A stretch of DNA of 22,757 nucleotides from a virus. The position numbers and the translations under genes were made by a program. Below the pieces are notes generated by a model. The model saw nothing but the letters and a program-made list of their open reading frames with translations. It ran no database searches and was not told the DNA's origin. Positions 2,832 to 19,793 of the stretch are shown here, piece after piece. How positions within the stretch are numbered: position 1 is the stretch's first letter; every line of letters starts with the position of its first letter. Where the stretch lies: positions 1-22,757 of IMG/VR virus record IMGVR_UViG_3300009149_000307; one strand, given 5' to 3'.

Positions 2832-3242
2832 CTAAAATAAATCATCTGTATCTACTTCCCCTGAGAAGCCGTGAGCTAACCTACCAATAAAGTTACCTAA
2901 CCCAAAATTATAAAACATAGAATACGCCTCAAAATCACCATCACTACACATAATAAAGTCTATCTGTACGTCTCTATAATCAAATGACCAGCAATTACCG
3001 TTATGGTATATCTCATTAGGTTCGAAGGTGGTAGTAATGTATTCCCTAATATCAGGAGGTGTCATAGGTGTACTCACTATTATATCTATGTCGCCATGGG
3101 ATTCCTTATTTTCATGACATAAGACCAACCGATTCTCAATATTACCCAAAGTGAGAATGTTACAAATCTCCATAGAAATCTGTCTATATTCTGGATTATA
3201 AACCCTAACAGTTTTAATTGATTTTAATGCATTACCTCCCAT
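2832..3242 (-). CDS. Nucleotidyltransferase, N-terminal catalytic half (copy A)
   Basis: 136 aa starting MGGNALKS, typical of phage nucleotidyltransferases. The Pol-beta-type catalytic signature is visible: G50-D51-x-D53 in HGDIDIIVS and a third acidic residue, D95, in VQIDFIM. The conserved block NGNCWSFDY follows the second strand. It ends with GNFIGRLAHGF and then a ten-residue tail SGEVDTDDLF before the stop, where an intact protein would continue into the C-terminal half encoded at 1440-2078. It has its own host-type promoter at 3261-3268. An upstream in-frame extension to 3389 crosses that promoter and a palindrome, so it is rejected. It probably supplies the working N-domain. Confidence 0.75.
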   Translation of the reverse strand: MGGNALKSIKTVRVYNPEYRQISMEICNILTLGNIENRLVLCHENKESHGDIDIIVSTPMTPPDIREYITTTFEPNEIYHNGNCWSFDYRDVQIDFIMCSDGDFEAYSMFYNFGLGNFIGRLAHGFSGEVDTDDLF

Positions 3243-3260
3243 CTTATTCACTTTATGGTA

Positions 3261-3268
3261 CAAAGATA
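3261..3268 (-). promoter_or_regulatory. Host-type -7 box TATCTTTG
   Basis: TAnnTTTG box on the minus strand 18 bp upstream of the ATG at 3242; it separates expression of nucleotidyltransferase copy A from the endonuclease upstream. Confidence 0.6.
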
Positions 3269-3289
3269 CTAAATTATTACGAGAATTAC

Positions 3290-3323
3290 AATATATTGAC
3301 TCGTAATTACGAGTCAATATATT
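3290..3323. repeat. Perfect 34-bp palindrome at the endonuclease stop codon
   Basis: 3290-3306 and 3307-3323 are exact reverse complements with no spacer. The palindrome contains the last codons and the TAA of the GIY-YIG gene at 3307-4182. As RNA it would give a hairpin of about 15 bp with an AATT loop. Candidate terminator, DNA cruciform or protein-binding site at the cassette boundary. Confidence 0.9.
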
Positions 3324-4182
3324 CATAATACTTGGATTGCCCAATACCCATCTTAAGTAAAATTTCACGTATTGGTAGTTTCTCGACAAACCTCAACCTC
3401 TTTAACTCATCTATCTCATCATGAGATAATGATTTATAGCATTTACTATCCTTACCTTTACCTATTTTACGTTTTTCGTGTATTTTATTTATGTGTTCCC
3501 TACTTTTGGTGTAATCGTACCCCCTCAGTTTAACGTTAGCGGATTTCAAAGCATTTCTAACTACTTCATATGACATACCCCCCTTTTTACTTATTTTACG
3601 TAAAGATAAGCCAGACTCATAATCATCGACTAACCCCTTAATATCTTCTACAGTTAGATGAAGTTTATTTGTTGGTGGTTTACGTTTGGGGGTTATTCCG
3701 TTTTCTATTAAAATTCGTTTAACTTTATTTTCATTTAAGGATAATTTGTCTGCAATATGTTTTAGGTACCACCCATCACCATATAACCTAATAATTTCAT
3801 TTATAACATCACCCCCTAATTTTATATAATTACTCGGTGGTTTATTATTAGTCAATATGTTAGTTAGACTACCAGAACCGTTACACCTCCTACCAATTAA
3901 ATTTATCAATTTAGTTTCTAATGCGTAGGCTTCCTCTTCATATAGATTGGTTTTAACTTTTATTATTTCGGGTTTTAAACCAACATCATTTATTTTTTCT
4001 AAAACTCTATATTTAAAAACGTTTGGGGTCTCTTCCTCGGTTTCAGTCAAGTGTTTTAGATGTCTATTACCACAACTCTTACCAACATAAATAGGTTCAT
4101 AATTGAATCGATAATCATTAAATACGTAGACCCCTTCTTTCCTTGGGTCTAGATAGATATAAACATAATACTTCTTTTCCAT
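3307..4182 (-). CDS. GIY-YIG endonuclease with helix-turn-helix repeats
   Basis: A 291-aa protein with an N-terminal GIY-YIG domain (VYIYLDPR at 7-14, PIYVGKS near 30-36, ETKLINLIGRRC as the Glu-bearing helix). From about residue 120 it has several short helix-turn-helix-like units (WYLKHIADKLSLNENKVKRIL; LSLRKISKKGGMSYEVVRNAL; LPIREILLKMGIGQSKYYEYI), presumably for DNA recognition in place of NUMOD modules. The start lies 1-2 nt after the motif CATATTTATATG, which leaves almost no leader. It lies between nucleotidyltransferase copy B (upstream) and copy A (downstream), and its stop falls inside a perfect palindrome. Probably a homing endonuclease targeting the nucleotidyltransferase gene. 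Confidence 0.87.
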   Translation of the reverse strand: MEKKYYVYIYLDPRKEGVYVFNDYRFNYEPIYVGKSCGNRHLKHLTETEEETPNVFKYRVLEKINDVGLKPEIIKVKTNLYEEEAYALETKLINLIGRRCNGSGSLTNILTNNKPPSNYIKLGGDVINEIIRLYGDGWYLKHIADKLSLNENKVKRILIENGITPKRKPPTNKLHLTVEDIKGLVDDYESGLSLRKISKKGGMSYEVVRNALKSANVKLRGYDYTKSREHINKIHEKRKIGKGKDSKCYKSLSHDEIDELKRLRFVEKLPIREILLKMGIGQSKYYEYIDS

Positions 4183-4183
4183 A

Positions 4184-4195
4184 CATATAAATATG
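4184..4195 (-). promoter_or_regulatory. Phage-type CATATTTATATG motif
   Basis: CATATTTATATG on the coding strand ends 1 nt before the ATG of the endonuclease at 4182. The flanks TTTCCA/TGGAAA can extend it into a hairpin. Confidence 0.45.
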
Positions 4196-4226
4196 TGGAA
4201 AATCAGTAAAAGTCGAATATTAAATT

Positions 4227-4586
4227 CTAGTTACCTAGGTCGTTGAAACTTAGGTAGTTAAGGTTAGAGTCGAAATGTTCTCCGTCCACAAACATCAGGT
4301 CTATTTGGATTTCCTTGTAGTCAAAAGACCAGCAGTTACCGTTATGGAATATTTCATTCGGCTTGAATGTGCTTTCGATGTACTGTCGCTTATCCATGTT
4401 TTCATTACCCTTAGTGGATATTAGGATATCGATATCACCGAAGGTTTCCTTCTTGTGGTAATATCTAGGCACCTCAGCTTGGTCGAACGTTCGCCTAAGT
4501 ATCCTCAACAGCGCTGAAGAAGCCTTACTGAACTCAGCTTTAGTGTATCTTCTAGTAAATGTGTTTCGTAACGCTCTACCACCAAT
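4227..4586 (-). pseudogene. Nucleotidyltransferase N-terminal fragment (copy B), both ends broken
   Basis: The open frame encodes IGGRALRNTFTRRY..., colinear residue for residue with copy A. It keeps GD-D (FGDIDILIS, D51/D53), IQIDLMF (third acidic residue) and NGNCWSFDY. The expected initiator Met is replaced by Ile (ATT at 4584-4586) with no ATG upstream after an in-frame TAA, although ATT could start weakly; an internal ATG exists at 4508. The frame stops right after DLGN, exactly where copy A continues FIGRLAHGF. Each break coincides with the edge of a GIY-YIG gene. About half the residues match copy A, so this is a diverged homologue and not a recent duplicate. I read it as the stranded N-terminus of the original gene. 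Confidence 0.7.
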
Positions 4587-4598
4587 GATTTCTAGGTT

Positions 4599-5369
4599 TT
4601 AGTTTAGGTTCTTTAAGGTTTTACTAGTCTTATGTATACCAACACCAACAGCATTGGCAATCTCTACGATTGTTAGACCTTCACCCCTTAATTTAACCAT
4701 TTTGTTAATAATTCTTTTATCTAATGGTTTAGCGAAGTTACCACTTTTTTTTGTAATATGCAAATTATAATCAGAAATTTTTCTCCTGATACATGAAATG
4801 CTAACTTGAAAATCTTCGGCAACCTCTTTAATCGTTTTATCTTTCAGCTTACTTTCTAAAATATTTTTATCTATATGAATATAGCTAGAACTAGTGTCAC
4901 CAGTTAATTTACTTCTAGTTTCGGACATTTTAGTTATTGTTTCATCCGAGTATACGTTAGTTTTATATTTATTCCAAGGTTCCCTACCTATTTGAGATTC
5001 GCTCATTTTACGTCTAGACTTTTCAGTATGGGTCTTACCATAGAAGTGATTATTTTCACCACTCAATTTATTGATTATGTCTGGTAGGTTAGGGTTCATA
5101 GTATAGGTATCACCACCACTCCCACCTAAAGCTATATTATAACCAATGGTGGTAGCACTTAACTTATCAATCCAATATATCTCACACTCATTTAACTCTT
5201 TTTTAGTGTCACAGGTTTCAATTACTGTCTTTTTGAAGTTTTCTATACCATATTTATTGATTGCCCTACTCAAAATTAACCCAGAACCTAAATAATCTGG
5301 ATTATTTTTAGAGTCTTGACCTATATAAATTTTACCATTCACTAGATTTGTCGTTTTATAAATTATCAT
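4599..5369 (-). CDS. GIY-YIG homing endonuclease (NUMOD3 plus HTH)
   Basis: A 256-aa protein. The GIY-YIG domain is at 2-90 (IYKTTN at 3-8, IYIGQD at 14-19, CEIYWIDKL with the catalytic-type Glu). A NUMOD3-like motif (GENNHFYGKTHTEKSRRKM) is near 109-127, and the C-terminal half has two HTH-like units (KTIKEVAEDFQVSISCIRRKI and LTIVEIANAVGVGIHKTSKTL). The N-terminal domain closely resembles that of the endonuclease at 2062-2778. It ends 12 nt before the broken start of nucleotidyltransferase copy B, so it may have inserted at or near that gene's start codon. CATATTTACAT lies 15 bp upstream of its ATG. Confidence 0.9.
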   Translation of the reverse strand: MIIYKTTNLVNGKIYIGQDSKNNPDYLGSGLILSRAINKYGIENFKKTVIETCDTKKELNECEIYWIDKLSATTIGYNIALGGSGGDTYTMNPNLPDIINKLSGENNHFYGKTHTEKSRRKMSESQIGREPWNKYKTNVYSDETITKMSETRSKLTGDTSSSYIHIDKNILESKLKDKTIKEVAEDFQVSISCIRRKISDYNLHITKKSGNFAKPLDKRIINKMVKLRGEGLTIVEIANAVGVGIHKTSKTLKNLN

Positions 5370-6283: not shown

Positions 6284-6430
6284 ATGGAAAAGAAAACGAA
6301 AGAAATAATGTTCAACGTAAGAGTTGAACGAGAGCTAAAGGATGCATTTATAAAGCACTGCAAAGATAATGGATATTCCATATCACAGAGACTAAGAATA
6401 TTATTAAAGAGAGATATCGATGGAGAATAA
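6284..6430 (+). CDS. Ribbon-helix-helix (Arc/CopG-like) DNA-binding protein
   Basis: 48 aa on the plus strand, opposite to most of the window. The pattern fits a minimal RHH protein: a basic strand (KEIMFNVRVERELK), helix A (DAFIKHCKDNG), a turn with Ser-Ile-Ser, and helix B (QRLRILLKRDI). RHH proteins dimerise and bind operators through the strand pair. Its last 11 nt overlap the start of the HNH endonuclease gene, so the two form one operon. The likely job is autoregulation of the endonuclease operon or target recognition with it; this is inferred from context only. Confidence 0.75.
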   Translation: MEKKTKEIMFNVRVERELKDAFIKHCKDNGYSISQRLRILLKRDIDGE

Positions 6431-7031
6431 AACATGCAAAAAGTGTGGGTCAGATAAACCACAGTCTGACTTCGGAAGAGATAAGAGTAGGGTAGATGGT
6501 TATAGTTACGTTTGTAAGGTGTGTAAAAATAGGTATAATAAAACTTACTACAATTTAAACACCGAAGCTAAACGTGATTACTATTTAGAAAATAGAGAAG
6601 GTATTAGTAATAATAATAAAGCTAAATACTATGAAAATAAAACTTTTTATTCTAATAAAAACCGTAAGTATCGTAATAACAGGTTAAAGAATGACCCATT
6701 ATTCAAATTGCGATATGATATTAAGGGTACTATACGTGACGCATTTAGGTCTAAAAATAAAGTTAAGGTCGGTTCAAGTTTAGACATTCTAGGGTGTTCA
6801 ATAATCGAATTTAAGGCTCATCTGGAAGCTCAGTTTGAACCGTGGATGAACTGGGATAATAAAGGTCTATATAATGGTGAATTGAATTATGGTTGGGATA
6901 TTGACCATATCATCCCAACTAGTTCGGCAATAACGGAAGAAGATATTATTAGGTTAAATCATTACACCAACTTGCAACCACTATGTAGTTACATTAATAG
7001 ATACGAAAAAAGGGGTAACGTTTTATGCTAA
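6420..7031 (+). CDS. HNH homing endonuclease with N-terminal zinc ribbon
   Basis: A 203-aa protein. The N-terminus has a CxxC...CxxC zinc ribbon (CKKCGSDKPQSDF, VCKVCKNRY), common in phage HNH proteins. The middle is basic and Asn/Lys-rich. The C-terminal HNH core reads WDIDHIIP (first His), LNHYTNLQPL (Asn) and CSYINRYEK. It overlaps the preceding RHH gene, and its 3' end overlaps the convergent PTH2-like gene by 9 nt. It shares the core WDIDH...SSAITEED.IRLNH.TNLQPLCSY with the HNH protein at 8950-9591, so the two are paralogues. Unlike the HAD locus, no duplicated neighbour fragment is visible here. Confidence 0.88.
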   Translation: MENKTCKKCGSDKPQSDFGRDKSRVDGYSYVCKVCKNRYNKTYYNLNTEAKRDYYLENREGISNNNKAKYYENKTFYSNKNRKYRNNRLKNDPLFKLRYDIKGTIRDAFRSKNKVKVGSSLDILGCSIIEFKAHLEAQFEPWMNWDNKGLYNGELNYGWDIDHIIPTSSAITEEDIIRLNHYTNLQPLCSYINRYEKRGNVLC

Positions 7032-8949: not shown

Positions 8950-9591
8950 ATGACACCAGAAGAAAAAAAAGAAGCAAAACGATTATACGATATAGATTAT
9001 CAGAAAAAAAATAGGGCTAAACTACGAGAACAAAAACGAATGTGGGCTAAAAATAATCCAGATAAGGTTGCTGCGTGTAGACTACGTAATAAAGAGGGGA
9101 AGAAAATTAGCGATAAAAAATACGCCCAAAAAAATGTCAAGCGAGAAAATGATAAAAAAATGTTATGGGCTAAAAATAACCCCGATAAACGTAAAAAAGC
9201 TAATGCGGATTATGTCCGTAAGAAGCTGGCTACCGACCCACTATATAAGTTGAAGCATTATACTAGATGCGCTATTAGGGGTGCGTTTAAGAAACGTGGG
9301 TATCGTAAGAAGTCTAGAACCCATGAAATATTAGGATGTTCATTCGATGAATTCAAATCGCATATTGAATCACAATGGGAAAATTGGATGAATTGGGATA
9401 ATTATGGTAACCCAGAGGATGGTATCTATGAGCCAAATAAGACGTGGGATATTGACCACGCTGTAGCAATATCGTCAGCAATAACTGAAGAAGATGTAAT
9501 CAGGTTAAACCATCATACAAATCTTCAGCCATTATGCAGTTACGATAATAGATTCATTAAGAAAGACCTACCTCAGTCTATTGGTGAGTGA
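8950..9591 (+). CDS. HNH homing endonuclease
   Basis: 213 aa on the plus strand. The first 100 residues are very basic and contain an internal repeat (RMWAKNNPDKVAACR and MLWAKNNPDKRKKAN), probably for DNA binding. The C-terminal HNH core is WDIDHAVA, LNHHTNLQPL, CSYDNRF. It lacks the N-terminal zinc ribbon of its paralogue at 6420-7031. Its last 19 nt overlap the 3' end of the intact HAD gene on the opposite strand, and its 5' side abuts the C-terminal remnant of another HAD gene. It therefore forms one flank of the cassette inserted in the HAD locus. Confidence 0.88.
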   Translation: MTPEEKKEAKRLYDIDYQKKNRAKLREQKRMWAKNNPDKVAACRLRNKEGKKISDKKYAQKNVKRENDKKMLWAKNNPDKRKKANADYVRKKLATDPLYKLKHYTRCAIRGAFKKRGYRKKSRTHEILGCSFDEFKSHIESQWENWMNWDNYGNPEDGIYEPNKTWDIDHAVAISSAITEEDVIRLNHHTNLQPLCSYDNRFIKKDLPQSIGE

Positions 9592-10225: not shown

Positions 10226-10921
10226 TTAAACAACCTTGAATTTCCACACATAACCATATGCATGTTTTGATTTACCCCTTAAATTCGCACTAATATTTTT
10301 TCTACATAACCCAAGCTCCAGCTCAACATCTTTAGCACTTTTCCACTCTTTCAGTAGGTTACCATCCGAATCAAACTGTAATATTGGTTTTTTAATGCTT
10401 TCAGCGTTATTTTTAATCCAATCGGCTGATTTGGTAACCTTCTTACCCACCAATTTCTTATTAGCCTCTTGACAAGCTATTGTGTTACCTATTTTTTTCC
10501 TACTTTCGGATATTAATTTTTTAGTCTCCTCCGTGTGTTTCTTATAAGTTCTTCTCTTATTAGACTCAATTATCTTTTTTTTATGTTCGTCACTAATTTT
10601 TCTCCCAAATCCACCATCACCCCCCAAGGTTAAATTCATTCCATTTTCGTTATTACCGTGGAACGAATTAAATAATCCGATAAAGAAAATTTCTAACTTA
10701 TTTAATTCTAATAATGTATTTTCACCTTCATAAAGTATATCAAATGTATGACCACTAAATCCATATTTTAATAATGAATGATAAATAAGTGGTTGTTTTT
10801 TACACTTTAATCTCCTATAATATGATAATCTCTGTTTTAAATTGATTGTTTTTCCAACATATATCCTACCACTTGGTGATTCTAATTTATAGATAATTCC
10901 TGTTTTTTTAATTGGCTCCAT
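10226..10921 (-). CDS. GIY-YIG homing endonuclease (NUMOD1 type)
   Basis: A 231-aa protein: GIY-YIG domain at 7-90 (GIIYKLESPSGRIYVGKT, LNKLEIFFIGLF with the Glu), a linker with NUMOD3-like KKHTEETKKLISESRKK, and a C-terminal NUMOD1 module (SDGNLLKEWKSAKDVELEL ... HAYGYVWKF) like that of the endonuclease at 2062-2778. The start is the ATG at 10921, just before the nuclease motif; an upstream TTG in the same frame lies across a hairpin. It is preceded by the N-terminal HAD remnant and followed by the intact HAD gene. It probably cut a HAD gene at the sequence encoding the DFDGTL active site. Confidence 0.9.
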   Translation of the reverse strand: MEPIKKTGIIYKLESPSGRIYVGKTINLKQRLSYYRRLKCKKQPLIYHSLLKYGFSGHTFDILYEGENTLLELNKLEIFFIGLFNSFHGNNENGMNLTLGGDGGFGRKISDEHKKKIIESNKRRTYKKHTEETKKLISESRKKIGNTIACQEANKKLVGKKVTKSADWIKNNAESIKKPILQFDSDGNLLKEWKSAKDVELELGLCRKNISANLRGKSKHAYGYVWKFKVV

Positions 10922-10943
10922 ATAAATAAATATGGAGCCAATT
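10910..10943. repeat. 13-bp inverted repeat with 8-nt AT loop over the endonuclease start
   Basis: 10910-10922 and 10931-10943 are perfect reverse complements; the loop with its edges carries the ATATTTATTTATATG version of the phage motif. The ATG at 10919-10921 lies within the stem, so the hairpin could hide the start or terminate upstream transcripts. Confidence 0.85.
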
Positions 10944-10960
10944 CTCGAAATCAAAAGAAT

Positions 10961-12664: not shown

Positions 12665-12913
12665 TCATCCTAAATCGTCTAACCATATTGGGCTGTCGTC
12701 ACCAAGAGATGAACCAGCCACGTTGAATTCGAAGTATTCAACAGCATCATCTGGTGTCATCTCTTGTACTTCGACAAGAACCTCTAAACATTTTTCAATT
12801 GAATAAATTAATAGCATCTTATACGGGTCAATACCTATGACCGCACTATCGAAACCATCGGCAGTATAAAACCCACCTTCTGGGTACATCTCATATATGT
12901 CATCTAATATCAT
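12665..12913 (-). CDS. Conserved small phage protein
   Basis: 82 aa, acidic. GGFYTADGFDSAVIGIDP, a strand LLIYSIEKC, a helix LEVLVEVQEM, DAVEYFEFNVAGSS and the C-terminal DDSPIW are familiar from unannotated proteins in many T4-like phages, but no function is known to me. It overlaps the end of the kinase-2H gene by 4 nt (ATGA). Confidence 0.8.
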   Translation of the reverse strand: MILDDIYEMYPEGGFYTADGFDSAVIGIDPYKMLLIYSIEKCLEVLVEVQEMTPDDAVEYFEFNVAGSSLGDDSPIWLDDLG

Positions 12914-13752
12914 GATTTTATTTCAGTTACGCGACCCCTCAGACTCACGTATGAATCTAATGGTTCCCAATTAGTAATTTTATTGGATATGAATGGCTTT
13001 CCGCCTTCCGCAGCGTTAACCGCAAGTGTAATATGCGGAATGTCATTGGTTGACGGATAACCATCTACCTTAACAGCTATAGCCAAATCAGACTTACCAA
13101 TCTCGGTCGCTCTTATATCAACGACCTTACCCAAATCAGACTTAATGTCCTCTGGTAATCCTTTAGCGAACACAATGGTCATATGATGAGCAAATGTCTT
13201 CCATCCCTTCGGAATTAGATGTCCCAATGCCGTCAACAATTTAGCGTGTGACTTATCATCCAATACTACAGCAGAATATAGAACCTTTGGTCGGTTTTGG
13301 TCGCCAGAGGATTCCATAATCTTTTTAACCGTTAATGTCCCAACACTCTTATGCACTTCAATCATCTTCTTAATCTTATCCAATGGTACACCGTGAGTAT
13401 TTCGTCCAGCCAATACTTCAGCAGTCAAACCGTTTGTTCCAACGTCTTCAACCGTAATGTTAGCATCCGAATAACCCAATTCCAATGCTGTCTTAACATA
13501 TGCTTTCGCATCTGAAGCCTTAAGATTCGTGTTGTCGATAACAATTGGTGTTACACCCTCCACCATAGACGCCTTGGCGTTTGTATGGTTCTTACTGTGC
13601 ATCTTACCGTGGTCAGACCAGTCCTTAGACTCGTTCATTCTCTTGAAGGCTCCCAAATAATCTCCAGTAGCTTCCCAAAGGTCGTCAGTTGAGTGGATTA
13701 CACCTTCTCCAACAATCTCGTTAGCTCTAGTGCTCTTACCAGCTCCTGTCAC
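12910..13752 (-). CDS. P-loop polynucleotide kinase/2H cyclic phosphodiesterase fusion (main part)
   Basis: 280 aa from a GTG start. The N-terminal kinase domain has the Walker A end TGAGKST (2-8), HSTDDLW (20-26), DNTN (73-76) and NTHGVP (118-123), as in N4BP2-like/CNPase-like P-loop kinases. The C-terminal 2H domain has H190-M-T192 and H240-I-T242. This order matches the kinase-CPD part of fungal tRNA ligase and the layout of CNPase, so it could phosphorylate 5'-OH and open 2',3'-cyclic phosphates on cleaved RNA. The first beta-strand and first Walker Gly are missing here. They are encoded in another frame just upstream (13749-13871), and the GTG overlaps that ORF's TGA as GTGA. An AGGGG sits 4 nt before the GTG. 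Confidence 0.8.
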   Translation of the reverse strand: MTGAGKSTRANEIVGEGVIHSTDDLWEATGDYLGAFKRMNESKDWSDHGKMHSKNHTNAKASMVEGVTPIVIDNTNLKASDAKAYVKTALELGYSDANITVEDVGTNGLTAEVLAGRNTHGVPLDKIKKMIEVHKSVGTLTVKKIMESSGDQNRPKVLYSAVVLDDKSHAKLLTALGHLIPKGWKTFAHHMTIVFAKGLPEDIKSDLGKVVDIRATEIGKSDLAIAVKVDGYPSTNDIPHITLAVNAAEGGKPFISNKITNWEPLDSYVSLRGRVTEIKS

Positions 13753-13871
13753 GGTACCCCTCTCATGATGTATAACATCTGAGAAGGGCGAGTAATTTTA
13801 ACGTTCATACTATTATAGTTTTCAGACTCAACTAATTTAGTCCTCAAACTGTTCCTTATATTTTTGTTCAT
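13749..13871 (-). CDS. N-terminal part of the kinase-2H protein, frameshifted
   Basis: 40 aa from an ATG. It ends RPSQMLYIMRGVP-stop, which is exactly the hydrophobic strand and first half of a Walker A (expected ...MRGVxGAGKST). The second half continues in the -1 frame in the next ORF. If five bases (ACCGT, about 13753-13757) are ignored, the frames join as MRGVTGAGKST. The start, MNKNIRNSLRTKLVESEN, resembles N-terminal leaders of phage head-associated proteins. It has a host-type box at 13906-13913. It may be a mutated gene, a recoded one, two coupled chains, or an assembly error. Confidence 0.7.
   Translation of the reverse strand: MNKNIRNSLRTKLVESENYNSMNVKITRPSQMLYIMRGVP
13761..13784. 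repeat. Imperfect 10-bp inverted repeat just before the frameshift
   Basis: TCTCA-T-GATGT at 13761-13771 pairs with ACATCTGAGA at 13775-13784, with one bulged base and a 3-nt loop. It lies immediately upstream of the frame break in the kinase gene and could act as an operator or RNA hairpin. Confidence 0.6.
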
Positions 13872-13905
13872 ACCTATCAATGAATTTAATTAATCCTAGC
13901 TTACG

Positions 13906-13913
13906 CAAAGATA
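13906..13913 (-). promoter_or_regulatory. Host-type -7 box TATCTTTG
   Basis: TAnnTTTG box about 34 bp upstream of the kinase N-terminal ORF. Confidence 0.6.
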
Positions 13914-13937
13914 CTAAAAATATTTCAGATATGCAAG

Positions 13938-14585
13938 TTACTTACCACCACCGCCACCAACAGCAAGTGCAAGTGAACTACAGGAAGCGTTAGCAGAGTT
14001 ACCAAGGGATATTTCAGAACCTTCAGCATTAGCGGTCCAACCTTTTTCACTGTCACTTTGAGTTAAACAATATGAACAAGACTCATCACTATTTGACATA
14101 GTAACACCAAATAGATATTCAGTATCGGCAGATAAGGTGACCGCATGATTAAATGCTCCACTTGTTATGGCTATATCTTCGGCAGATATTATATCTTTTA
14201 CACCACTACCAACTACCAACAAATCTATATTCATAGTTCCTGTAACAGCGCTCATACTACCTAATATAGAACCAGCTAATTTACCTTTATAATAACCTAA
14301 ACTAATTGATATCGCATCATCACAACCACCTACTTCATTATCTACCTCAGTAAAGTATACTTTGCTGAGAGAGTCATTAAATGTGAATTTAGTCCAATTA
14401 TCATCCTTTTGGATGTCTTCAATAGTATATTGTTGACTTGGAGCTATTTTAAAGGTACGTGGAGGTAATACCCCTCGCTTACCTAAGAATAGTAACCTCT
14501 TTGCGATGTCGTTTATAGTGTCTGGGTTTCTAACCAGTAATCGAAGTAATCGAAGTATATCGGCTTGTAATTCTGCTTCTGACAT
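13938..14585 (-). CDS. Probable structural protein (beta-rich, Gly-rich C-terminus)
   Basis: 215 aa. The N-terminal 40 residues are helical (LQADILRLLRLLVRNP...IAKRLLFLG). The rest is rich in Ser, Thr, Gly and Asp with many short strands, and it ends in LALAVGGGGGK. It has no enzyme motifs; four Cys are present (GGCDD, SCSYC, ASCSS). Low complexity and beta-richness suggest a virion surface or fibre-associated protein. That is a compositional guess. CATATTTAATA (14627-14637) lies upstream. Confidence 0.7.
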   Translation of the reverse strand: MSEAELQADILRLLRLLVRNPDTINDIAKRLLFLGKRGVLPPRTFKIAPSQQYTIEDIQKDDNWTKFTFNDSLSKVYFTEVDNEVGGCDDAISISLGYYKGKLAGSILGSMSAVTGTMNIDLLVVGSGVKDIISAEDIAITSGAFNHAVTLSADTEYLFGVTMSNSDESCSYCLTQSDSEKGWTANAEGSEISLGNSANASCSSLALAVGGGGGK

Positions 14586-14626
14586 GTATCATTTTTTAAT
14601 CAATAATAATAGAGAATTGTCTCTTC

Positions 14627-14637
14627 TATTAAATATG
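14627..14637 (-). promoter_or_regulatory. Phage-type CATATTTAATA motif
   Basis: CATATTTAATA then GAAG on the minus strand, 41 bp upstream of the ATG at 14585. Confidence 0.35.
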
Positions 14638-14659
14638 TCTAAACTATTACAAGTACGTG

Positions 14660-15337
14660 TTAACTGTAATAAGAATCGTAGACATCACCGTTTAATCCGT
14701 AGTCAATTAGAACCACCGTATCGGCACCATCTCTCTTAACAACACCATATGAATTCATCCTACCTAAGTCACCCGCTGGAACGGCATAGTTACCAATGAA
14801 TTGTAATACATCATACGCAAATTCATTCTCCCACACCGACTCTCTCTCTTCTTCAGTCTCATCATAGATGGGCTTACGATTAGAACTGTGGGTGATTCCA
14901 TAATTAAGAATCACTCTCATAAAGACATCCCATTCAACACCTGTTATCGTAGCAAATGTTGGTTTGGTTAGTTTTCTAGCCAATTCCATTTCAGACCACT
15001 TATCGTTCTGGTCGTAAGTATATACCCTAGCAACCAAGTCATATAACATACCTTCTTTAGAGTATCCTATCTCGACTTCGTTCTGGGCTAATCCCTTCTT
15101 GTTGTAAGCTAGTTTTAATACCTTCTCATCGTCTATTTTATAAACGATTCTAGATGAACCTGAAGAGATTCGTTTTAGGTGTTCTTGACAGTATCTAGTT
15201 CTCGCAGCGAATGAGCCTAGCTTCTTAAACTCCTCCATGTTGAACGAGCTTGGATAGTCTTCACCTATCAGAGTCTCAATGTGTTCAAACACTTCACTCT
15301 CCGATAGTACAGATTCTAGTATTGGTGATAGTTTCAT
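14660..15337 (-). CDS. Protein-kinase-like protein with CTS-like N-terminus
   Basis: 225 aa. A Gly/Ser-rich loop ISSGSSRIVYKI (57-68), VLKLA with K75 and a conserved Glu helix (LAQNEVEI, E87 or E89) resemble the N-lobe of protein kinases. A C-terminal VVLIDYGLN resembles a DFG-like segment, but I see no clear HRD catalytic loop, so it may be a pseudokinase. The N-terminus MKLSPILESVLSES matches that of the GNAT/ParB protein at 16924-17604. Both contain I-x-E, which fits the cleavage rule of T4-type prohead protease, hinting at packaging in the capsid. Its ATG overlaps the stop of the 56-aa gene upstream. Confidence 0.65.
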   Translation of the reverse strand: MKLSPILESVLSESEVFEHIETLIGEDYPSSFNMEEFKKLGSFAARTRYCQEHLKRISSGSSRIVYKIDDEKVLKLAYNKKGLAQNEVEIGYSKEGMLYDLVARVYTYDQNDKWSEMELARKLTKPTFATITGVEWDVFMRVILNYGITHSSNRKPIYDETEEERESVWENEFAYDVLQFIGNYAVPAGDLGRMNSYGVVKRDGADTVVLIDYGLNGDVYDSYYS

Positions 15338-18651: not shown

Positions 18652-18954
18652 TTAATATATTTTTTGAGTTAAACTACCGTTATACTCAGGATTGAAGTGC
18701 TCTATTAACTTCTTTTCCACTTCTTTATGGTTATCACAGAAGATGAAAACCACTTCATCGAATGGGAGTATCTTATGTATCCCAGACTTAGAAAAATGAC
18801 CTATTAACCTTTGGTATAGGTTCTTAGACCTACCGATGTATAACGCTTCATCATCCTTTAGGAAAGCGTATACGCCCGATTCACCTCTTAGCAGTGACCA
18901 AAGACCACGTTTTCTTGGTTTAATGTCCGATTTTTGTATTCTAAGGTTAATCAT
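18652..18954 (-). CDS. Single-domain GIY-YIG nuclease
   Basis: 100 aa consisting of little more than the nuclease fold: GVYAFLKDDEALYIGRSKNLYQRLIGH (GVY at 27-29, YIG at 39-41, Arg helix), a strand EVVFIFCD, and VEKKLIEHFNPEYN with the catalytic Glu and terminal Asn. No DNA-recognition module follows. It overlaps the end of the larger GIY-YIG gene by 8 nt, so the two are coupled. It may be free-standing, or use the larger protein's recognition. Confidence 0.85.
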   Translation of the reverse strand: MINLRIQKSDIKPRKRGLWSLLRGESGVYAFLKDDEALYIGRSKNLYQRLIGHFSKSGIHKILPFDEVVFIFCDNHKEVEKKLIEHFNPEYNGSLTQKIY

Positions 18955-19603
18955 ACTTTCGCCCTCTAACCCAACCTTCTACAAGGTAAGAATCAAGGTC
19001 TTCTTTCTTTATCTTCTTATTCTCACCGTCTTTGGTTATCCAGCAAGTACCGTACTGAGAATTTTTATCACCAACCCTCTTTTTAGCCAGCTCACTTAGC
19101 TTATTCTTCGTTTCTTCGCTATGAGTCTTACCATGAAATCCATGGTGGGTATATACCCCCGTCTTTAGACCTTTGCGATAATTATTCATATTTTTAACAG
19201 TCCTTTCATTATGAAGCCTTCGAAATTCATCATCCTCTCTTAGCCGTTTAATAAAGTTTTTAGTACCCACTTTTGAACTCATCATAAACTTTTTTCTGTG
19301 TTCTTCACTGCTAAACCCACCGCCACCTCCTGGCGCAAGATTCATACATAAATCCTTCTTAAGTAAGTCCTCGTTGACCAACTCAACCTCACGCTCTCTC
19401 AATTCCTTTCTAGTATCATAATACTCTAGTATCTCTACCGTGTGATTATCTTTACCATGGTAGTTAAACGAGTGCCACAGGCGTTTACCTGAACCCATAT
19501 AACCATCCTTAATGTTGTCGGTTGAGTGCATACCGATGTAGTACCTTCCAGTCACATCACAAGTGGTCTTGTAGATGTAATGGTATTTCTTTTGTTTCCT
19601 CAT
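18947..19603 (-). CDS. GIY-YIG homing endonuclease (NUMOD3 type)
   Basis: A 218-aa protein starting at the ATG at 19603 (MRKQKKYHYIYKTT), just before the nuclease motif; longer frames cross the promoter-like motif. GIY-YIG is at 7-95 (YHYIYKTT, GRYYIGMH, RELREREVELVNEDLL with the Glu). NUMOD3-like units follow in GFHGKTHSEETKNKLSEL and VGDKNSQYG, and the C-terminus ends in CWITKDGENKKIKKEDLDS and EGWVRGRK, common in phage GIY-YIG proteins. It lies directly downstream of two tRNA-Arg genes, which may mark its insertion target. Confidence 0.9.
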   Translation of the reverse strand: MRKQKKYHYIYKTTCDVTGRYYIGMHSTDNIKDGYMGSGKRLWHSFNYHGKDNHTVEILEYYDTRKELREREVELVNEDLLKKDLCMNLAPGGGGGFSSEEHRKKFMMSSKVGTKNFIKRLREDDEFRRLHNERTVKNMNNYRKGLKTGVYTHHGFHGKTHSEETKNKLSELAKKRVGDKNSQYGTCWITKDGENKKIKKEDLDSYLVEGWVRGRKYD

Positions 19604-19604
19604 A

Positions 19605-19616
19605 CATATAAATATG
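19605..19616 (-). promoter_or_regulatory. Phage-type CATATTTATATG motif
   Basis: Full CATATTTATATG, ending 1 nt before the endonuclease ATG at 19603. Confidence 0.5.
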
Positions 19617-19641
19617 CAGCTAAGGTACAAAAGTTCCAAAG

Positions 19642-19714
19642 TACTCTCTCAAGGACTCGAACCCTGACTCTGAAATTCGTAGTTTCAAGTGCTTTCCAAT
19701 TACACCAAGAGAGC
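19642..19714 (-). tRNA. tRNA-Arg(ACG)
   Basis: A 73-nt cloverleaf: acceptor GCTCTCT/AGAGAGT (one G-U), D-arm GTG/CAC, anticodon stem TGAAA/TTTCA with loop CTACGAA (anticodon ACG at plus 19678-19680, presumably read as ICG), T-arm CAGGG-TTCGAGT-CCTTG, and discriminator A. CCA is not encoded. It has a normal short variable loop, unlike the cluster at 1-340. Confidence 0.92.
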
Positions 19715-19717
19715 TTA

Positions 19718-19793
19718 TGGTACCCCCACTAGGACTCGAACCTAGACCAAAAATTTAGGAAATTCATATGCTATTCCGTTACACCATGGGGGT
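19718..19793 (-). tRNA. tRNA-Arg(CCU)
   Basis: Acceptor ACCCCCA/TGGGGGT, D-arm GTG/CAT, anticodon loop TTCCTAA (anticodon CCU at plus 19757-19759) on an AU-rich stem with one U-U mismatch, T-arm CTAGG-TTCGAGT-CCTAG, and discriminator A. The next three bases are CCA, so the 3' end may be encoded here, alone among the tRNAs in this window. Three bases separate it from tRNA-Arg(ACG). Confidence 0.9.

Follow-up and report, generated by a model that had tools for sequence, protein, structure and literature searches.

A stop codon and hairpin in the Walker A motif of a phage kinase-2H gene: probable remains of a homing-endonuclease cassette, probably crossed by ribosome hopping

How does a phage keep an RNA-repair enzyme whose gene carries a stop codon inside its Walker A motif? 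The viral metagenome record IMGVR_UViG_3300009149_000307 (22,757 bases, the whole stretch analysed and here called the window) raises this question with an interrupted polynucleotide kinase-2H gene on its minus strand. The open reading frame (ORF) from ATG 13871 (MNKNIRNSLRTKLVESENYNSMNVKITRPSQMLYIMRGVP) is the 5' part of the gene, MNKN...IMRGVP, which runs to CCG 13752 and terminates at TGA 13751–13749. A second ORF, open from GTG 13752 and reading (V)TGAGKST..., continues to 12910 in a frame that corresponds to a 5-nucleotide (nt) skip, or a 1-nt backward slip, relative to the first. The gap between the coding parts is TGACA (13747–13751), the in-frame stop plus two bases; after it come GGA GCT GGT AAG AGC ACT (GAGKST) at the head of a 3' exon of 278 codons and a stop (12910–13746). 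The original prediction, made from these letters alone, had described the two ORFs in shifted frames, the GTGA overlap of stop and restart, and the recovery of Walker A by a 5-base skip, and re-reading both ORFs bore all of this out. As to the origin of the break, the gene is probably a derivative of a mobile homing-endonuclease cassette that has lost its endonuclease gene, with full-length enzyme made by ribosomes that hop over the gap.

The 3' exon has weak matches to kinase (AAA_33) and 2H/CPD models, with a polynucleotide kinase (PNK)-type domain at about 13320–13746 and a 2H/CNPase-type phosphodiesterase domain at about 12913–13299. Its relatives were drawn from viral contigs and form two classes – 40 intact genes, and 13 interrupted, distinct lineages including the window (labels such as L001 and L004 denote individual relatives or lineages). 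The AlphaFold (AF2) model of L001, the intact gene most similar to the window after the break, has a predicted local distance difference test (pLDDT) score of 92. Its top matches in the PDB are T4-type polynucleotide kinases (1ly1, 4gp6, 4gp7), it also matches CNPase-like 2H folds, and the PHROGs assignment of the gene agrees with these. L001 combines the GxxGxGKST form of Walker A with the PNK fold, the two marks of a PNK-type 5'-kinase; the window gene has this form of the motif only when the gap is skipped.

The same interruption recurs in other viruses. Intact genes read MRG(I/V)(P/S)GxGKST or near it, and a hairpin, CCG and a stop were found together at these Walker A codons, in the same gene family, in 18 other viral contigs representing 12 further distinct lineages. 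All 13 lineages share one layout: CCG, a stop (TGA, TAA or TAG) directly 3' of it, 2–6 bases, and then the GGN codon of GxGKST, which in the window is the GGA at 13744–13746, aligned with GxGKST of the 40 intact homologues. CCG (13752–13754 in the window) occupies its position in 13 of 13 interrupted genes and 1 of 40 intact ones, and is locally rare, mostly 0–12% of proline codons in nearby ORFs. The gap is TGACA in the window and L054, TAACCA in L004, L052 and L064, TAACTA in L019, L055 and L056, TAGCTA in L011, TAGCTT in L022 and L063, TAACCT in L057 and TAAATATCA in L053 – that is, 5 nt in two lineages, 6 nt in ten and 9 nt in one. Since TAA (8 lineages), TAG (3) and TGA (2) all occur at this position, a stop as such is maintained, and no single codon reassignment fits, which rejects an alternative genetic code.

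Two pattern scans, the first with no demand for the hairpin's 5' arm and the second with both arms but no kinase demanded, returned the identical 18 contigs. A control scan for the signature stop with a CGN arginine codon in place of the AGA-coded 3' arm returned no matches; CGN is used at that position by 24 of the 40 intact genes. Among bacterial genome contigs the strict kinase pattern had no matches, and the 14 matches to a hairpin-only pattern were unrelated terminator-like or chance hairpins. Annotated phages gave no DNA match and a single weak protein match.

The kinase half of the broken gene is also under purifying selection. The ratio of non-synonymous to synonymous rates (dN/dS) between the window and L001 is 0.14 in the kinase half and 0.13 in the 2H half, and the kinase halves of other interrupted/intact pairs gave 0.04 (L011/L005), 0.05 (L022/L006) and 0.14 (L056/L083), about equal to or below the 2H-half values, all as pairwise estimates that are near saturation for most lineages. 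Polarised changes in the kinase number 7 on the window branch and 7 on the L001 branch, with no excess in the window. All nine kinase motif residues checked (K, S, T, both D, N, T, R, N) are kept in 13 of 13 lineages, and the new 5' exon codes for the family N-terminus even in lineages without an endonuclease gene. No second intact copy was found in the carrier records, which include contigs of 187 kb and 161 kb and are mostly fragments. The comparison of homologues, a check that the original prediction itself had proposed, settles several of its options. The 12 further interrupted lineages exclude an assembly error or a disabling private mutation. A decaying pseudogene is ruled out, as it had argued, by the purifying selection and the retention of every catalytic residue checked, which leaves recoding or bypass as the best of the explanations it had listed. 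On these comparisons, then, the break is neither an error nor decay.

The source of the interruption is indicated by lineages that still carry a homing endonuclease gene (HEG). In four of them (L011, L054, L055 and L064) an HEG lies at the Walker A codons, and the 40 intact genes are the empty sites – both marks of an HEG cassette, an endonuclease gene at the insertion point and homologues with the site unoccupied. The HEG encodes an endonuclease of ~280 amino acids, with NUMOD3 and a TnsA-like nuclease. Full cassettes (L011, L054, L064) contain, in order, the old 5' exon truncated after ..MRGIPGA or ..MRGIPGSG, the HEG, a new 5' exon that adjoins or overlaps the HEG stop, the hairpin, CCG, the stop and the native GxGKST. 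L055 has the HEG but just a fragment of the old exon; L022 has the old exon plus a fragment of the HEG C-terminus. The window has the replacement 5' exon (13752–13871, minus strand), 40 codons from ATG to CCG ending MRG-V-P, and a ghost of the HEG C-terminus at 13837–13899 (minus strand; LGLIKFIDRYEQKYKEQFED followed by a stop), which has no start of its own and overlaps the kinase start. This ghost (LIKFIDRYEQKYKEQ) aligns with the endonuclease C-termini of L064 (IKFTDRYEEKYKIW), L054 (LKFLERYELKYKEW) and L055 (IKFLPRYEKKYNER).

The HEG proteins are 56–70% identical to that of L011, and the hairpin and stop are nearly unchanged. Similarity switches at the break: the window and L001 are 81% identical after it and 48% before it, and the last 60 nt of the window's replacement exon are 82% identical to the interrupted L052 and 48% to L001. 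In a tree of the 3' exons the interrupted genes are scattered, with at least 8 gains or losses, and cluster no better than shuffled labels. A NUMOD3/TnsA-like HEG would cut, or insert into, this phage polynucleotide kinase-2H gene at its Walker A codons. As the sequences show, the old gene is cut short after ..MRG(I/V)PG(x)G by the cassette, which adds a replacement 5' exon, with its 13-bp hairpin, CCG and stop, joined directly to the native GxGKST codons. The extra bases probably render the occupied site uncleavable.

In the L054 group the kinase-2H gene is split a second time (L054 5359–5799 and 7035–7652): kinase residues 35–182 are followed by an insertion of ~1.2 kb and a second ORF of residues 106–307 that partly duplicates the gene, an arrangement suggestive of a second cassette inserted there. 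Relatives of the cassette HEG (L024–L051) occur repeatedly at the 5' ends of P-loop kinases, thymidylate kinases, FEN-like nucleases and C5-methyltransferases. Several of the HEG-associated P-loop genes have a truncated old exon ending in the P-loop (L032 ..GGPGVG, L033 ..GGPCSG, L046 ..EGND, L051 ..GCPGSG) together with a restored N-terminus. No stop interrupts the motif in any of the inspected genes of this kind, and the hairpin-stop therefore seems specific to the kinase-2H host.

The hairpin lies at 13757–13788 (minus strand) in the window, with 13 pairs, one bulge and a TTATA loop (14–15 pairs counting end pairs), and ends 2 nt before CCG. A hairpin had been predicted here, but as an imperfect 10-bp helix at 13761–13784; likewise the AGGGG noted before the GTG is present and is the 3' arm of the hairpin, encoding R-G-V, and its role as a ribosome-binding site is putative. 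All 13 lineages follow, with a few changes, the consensus CCCCTCTCA-GATR-TTNNN-YATC-A-TGAGAGGGG, also ending 2 nt before CCG. In the alignment of the region 26 of 48 columns are invariant, and across 12 distinct sequences 98% of the cells counted are paired. At pair 7–38 L004 has UA in place of the usual CG, and pair 19–25 alternates between AU and GC; since the helix hardly varies, covariation is modest. Mean folding energy over 45 nt is −22.7 kcal/mol in interrupted genes versus −3.8 kcal/mol in the 40 intact homologues, from which the conserved hairpin is absent. When CCG occupies the P site, the four uppermost pairs are at least 13 nt upstream of it, and the nine below them would close as the mRNA is drawn back. 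A motor role has been proposed for the 5' stem-loop of T4 (PMC5009743), and by analogy the same geometry may apply here.

Sequence comparison of these elements suggests a mechanism for the hop. The ribosome would stall when CCG is paired with peptidyl-tRNA-Pro and the A site holds the stop, aided by slow release after a C-terminal proline; slow release and stalling at Pro-stop are known from E. coli (PMC7246954). The hairpin would refold behind the ribosome and pull the mRNA backwards, and the tRNA would detach and re-pair 5–9 nt downstream at CCA, CCT, CTA, CTT, TCA or ACA. Decoding would restart at GGN and give exactly MRGVP-GxGKST, with Walker A GxxGxGKST restored. The window's hop, being 5 nt long, would change frame as well, with landing from CCG on ACA (putative triplet 13749–13747, two of three pairs) or from GUA on GUG (product GVTGAGKST). 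The latter is a matched take-off and landing pair for the 5-nt gap of the window and L054, and either route restores the length of Walker A. Four tRNA genes are present in the window at 164–339 and 19641–19793 (minus strand) – Val(tac), Cys(gca), Arg(acg) and Arg(cct) – and the tRNA-Val(tac) would decode both GUA and GUG.

Several observations weigh against hopping. Landing is exact (CCA/CCU) in only 4 of the 13 lineages; a further 7 could pair by G–U wobble (CUA/CUU/UCA), and the window and L054 offer a poor match (ACA). None of the 13 has a T4-like take-off stem-loop, and the gap is only 5–9 nt. Their new exons contain no conserved KKYK-type nascent peptide; in L019, L057 and L063 the exon is only 23–24 amino acids long, and no common motif occurs 25–30 amino acids before take-off. 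The near-saturation of the selection estimates counts on the same side. Imperfect landing has precedents (PMC5009743; Herr et al. 2004 as cited in PMC3014915). The last 45 bases of the cassette, comprising hairpin, CCG and stop, may well be a self-sufficient, transplantable hop module, in which the refolding hairpin alone would move the ribosome a few bases, in frame (6 or 9 nt) or out of it (5 nt), without any signal from the nascent peptide. Such a module would be the first 'stop-hop' in nature, and HEGs sheltered by translational bypass would then have arisen a second time, independently.

The gap could instead be decoded, by readthrough of the stop in the 6- and 9-nt lineages or a −1 frameshift in the 5-nt lineages, giving a kinase with two or three extra P-loop residues (MRGVP-x-L-GAGKST or MRGVP-V-T-GAGKST). 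Ten of the 13 gaps are exactly two in-frame codons, and a −1 slip at CCG_UGA in the window would likewise add two residues. Little credence is given to this explanation, however: the Walker A spacing GxxxxGK would be lost, with proline replacing glycine at −6, in an enzyme whose other catalytic residues are all kept; the gap is 9 nt in one lineage and 5 nt in two; and an upstream hairpin is typical for bypass, not readthrough. Removal of the gap from the mRNA, as a small intron or by cleavage and religation, perhaps via the RNA-repair enzymes of the phage, would suit a strong hairpin that adjoins the gap, a product that is itself an RNA kinase-2H enzyme and a genome rich in RNA-repair genes. 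It is nevertheless very improbable for a gap that varies in length (5, 6 or 9 nt) and sequence, lacks conserved splice boundaries and conserves a stop that splicing would not require; neither the window (13600–14700) nor a full cassette (L011 3700–5150) has a group I or group II intron match in Rfam up to E=1.

The stop is real and would end ordinary translation, and the L054 group has an additional break ahead of the 2H part, both of which favour a cassette that disables the kinase and leaves the 2H part alone, made from a downstream start, or nothing, the hairpin-stop merely terminating. Such a loss is improbable when constraint on the kinase half equals that on the 2H half, the catalytic residues survive in all 13 lineages, the replacement exon still codes for the N-terminus and carrier records yield no backup copy. 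The GTGA overlap in the window favours another option of the original prediction, two assembling chains – a 40-amino-acid N-terminal peptide and a C-terminal chain from GTG 13752 – made by coupled translation. This is extremely improbable, since the phosphate-binding loop itself would be divided between the chains and most lineages have no start codon near the break: the GTG is confined to the 5-nt lineages, and those with 6- and 9-nt gaps have none. The original interpretation is thus supported in part; the key to the preferred reading, an HEG-less cassette crossed by hopping, is the homing endonuclease origin, which was invisible from the window alone.

A promoter-like −7 box of Bacteroidetes type, TAnnTTTG (TATCTTTGC, 13905–13913, minus strand), lies 34 nt 5' of the kinase start. 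Such boxes number 19 across the whole window versus 12.7 expected, weakly above chance, and give a weak indication that the host is probably a member of the Bacteroidetes. An ORF of 215 amino acids (13938–14585, minus strand), with only marginal Pfam matches and no PHROGs match, is inserted between the kinase gene and the neighbour that normally lies upstream of it (14660–15337).

The window contains a second arrangement of old exon, HEG and replacement 5' exon (2832–4508, minus strand), with a different nuclease family. A truncated gene copy ending ..SFNDLGN (4227–4508) is followed by a GIY-YIG endonuclease ORF (3307–4182) and a full gene copy (2832–3389) that starts inside the end of the endonuclease ORF; no stop or hop was seen in this arrangement. 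Homing-endonuclease-like ORFs are unusually many, at 2062–2808, 4599–5369 and 10226–10954 (minus strand), 6420–7031 and 8950–9591 (plus strand) and 18947–19639 (minus strand). Three have Pfam support (GIY-YIG/SegE or NUMOD3); those at 6420–7031, 8950–9591 and 18947–19639 were judged by eye and have no Pfam match.

Among known systems the closest comparison is T4 gene 60, with its 50-nt bypass, HEG-split gene 39 and mobE/mobA region. In both, an HEG is inserted in a gene at an essential motif, the gap opens with a stop that directly adjoins the take-off codon, and a 5' stem-loop precedes take-off. The adjacent stop (13 of 13) and a 13-bp 5' stem-loop with covariation are found here; codon matching is mixed (CCA/CCU 4, wobble 7, ACA 2 including the window), and the gap stem-loop and the KKYK peptide 25–30 amino acids before take-off, both defining features of the T4 system, are missing. 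The gap here is about ten times shorter, the tRNA is Pro rather than Gly, and the nuclease is NUMOD3/TnsA-like rather than HNH. The replacement 5' exon restores one gene, whereas in T4 the gene is split, and many lineages are involved rather than one phage. The T4 gap is thought to protect against the nuclease (PMC5009743, PMC3014915). A take-off-adjacent stop, the 5' stem-loop motor, synthetic stop-hops and the HEG association of gene 60 are all precedented (PMC5009743, PMC11194080), and the present system may be regarded as a variant of HEG-associated bypassing.

The synthetic stop-hops are matched most closely by CCG-UAA-CCA/CCU (L004, L052, L064, L057) – take-off codon, stop and matched landing codon – but here the arrangement is natural, conserved and accompanied by a hairpin. 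A 2016 review knew of no natural in-frame stop hop (PMC5009743). No later or earlier report of a hairpin-stop cassette or a natural stop-hop was found in the open-access literature. The byp elements of Magnusiomyces capitatus mitochondria are also short bypassed inserts, found across genes, that tolerate imperfect take-off/landing matches; they are seemingly context-independent, whereas the insert described here is confined to one site in one gene family and is HEG-borne. The byp inserts are 27–55 nt long. The enzyme itself resembles T4 polynucleotide kinase and the kinase-CPD of tRNA ligases in its PNK fold (1ly1, 4gp6/4gp7) and 2H/CNPase-like domain, but is a single-chain kinase-2H without ligase or phosphatase.

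To our knowledge, T4 gene 60 is described as the sole clear phage case of ribosome bypassing, and its signals are numerous and difficult to disentangle. A recurrent hop of 5–9 nt with one hairpin and 13 natural variants would reveal the minimal requirements. In metagenomes such genes are mis-annotated as truncated or frameshifted. If true, the hop would be a second link between bypassing and selfish endonucleases, and would suggest that hopping is a general route by which HEGs break a conserved motif without killing the gene.
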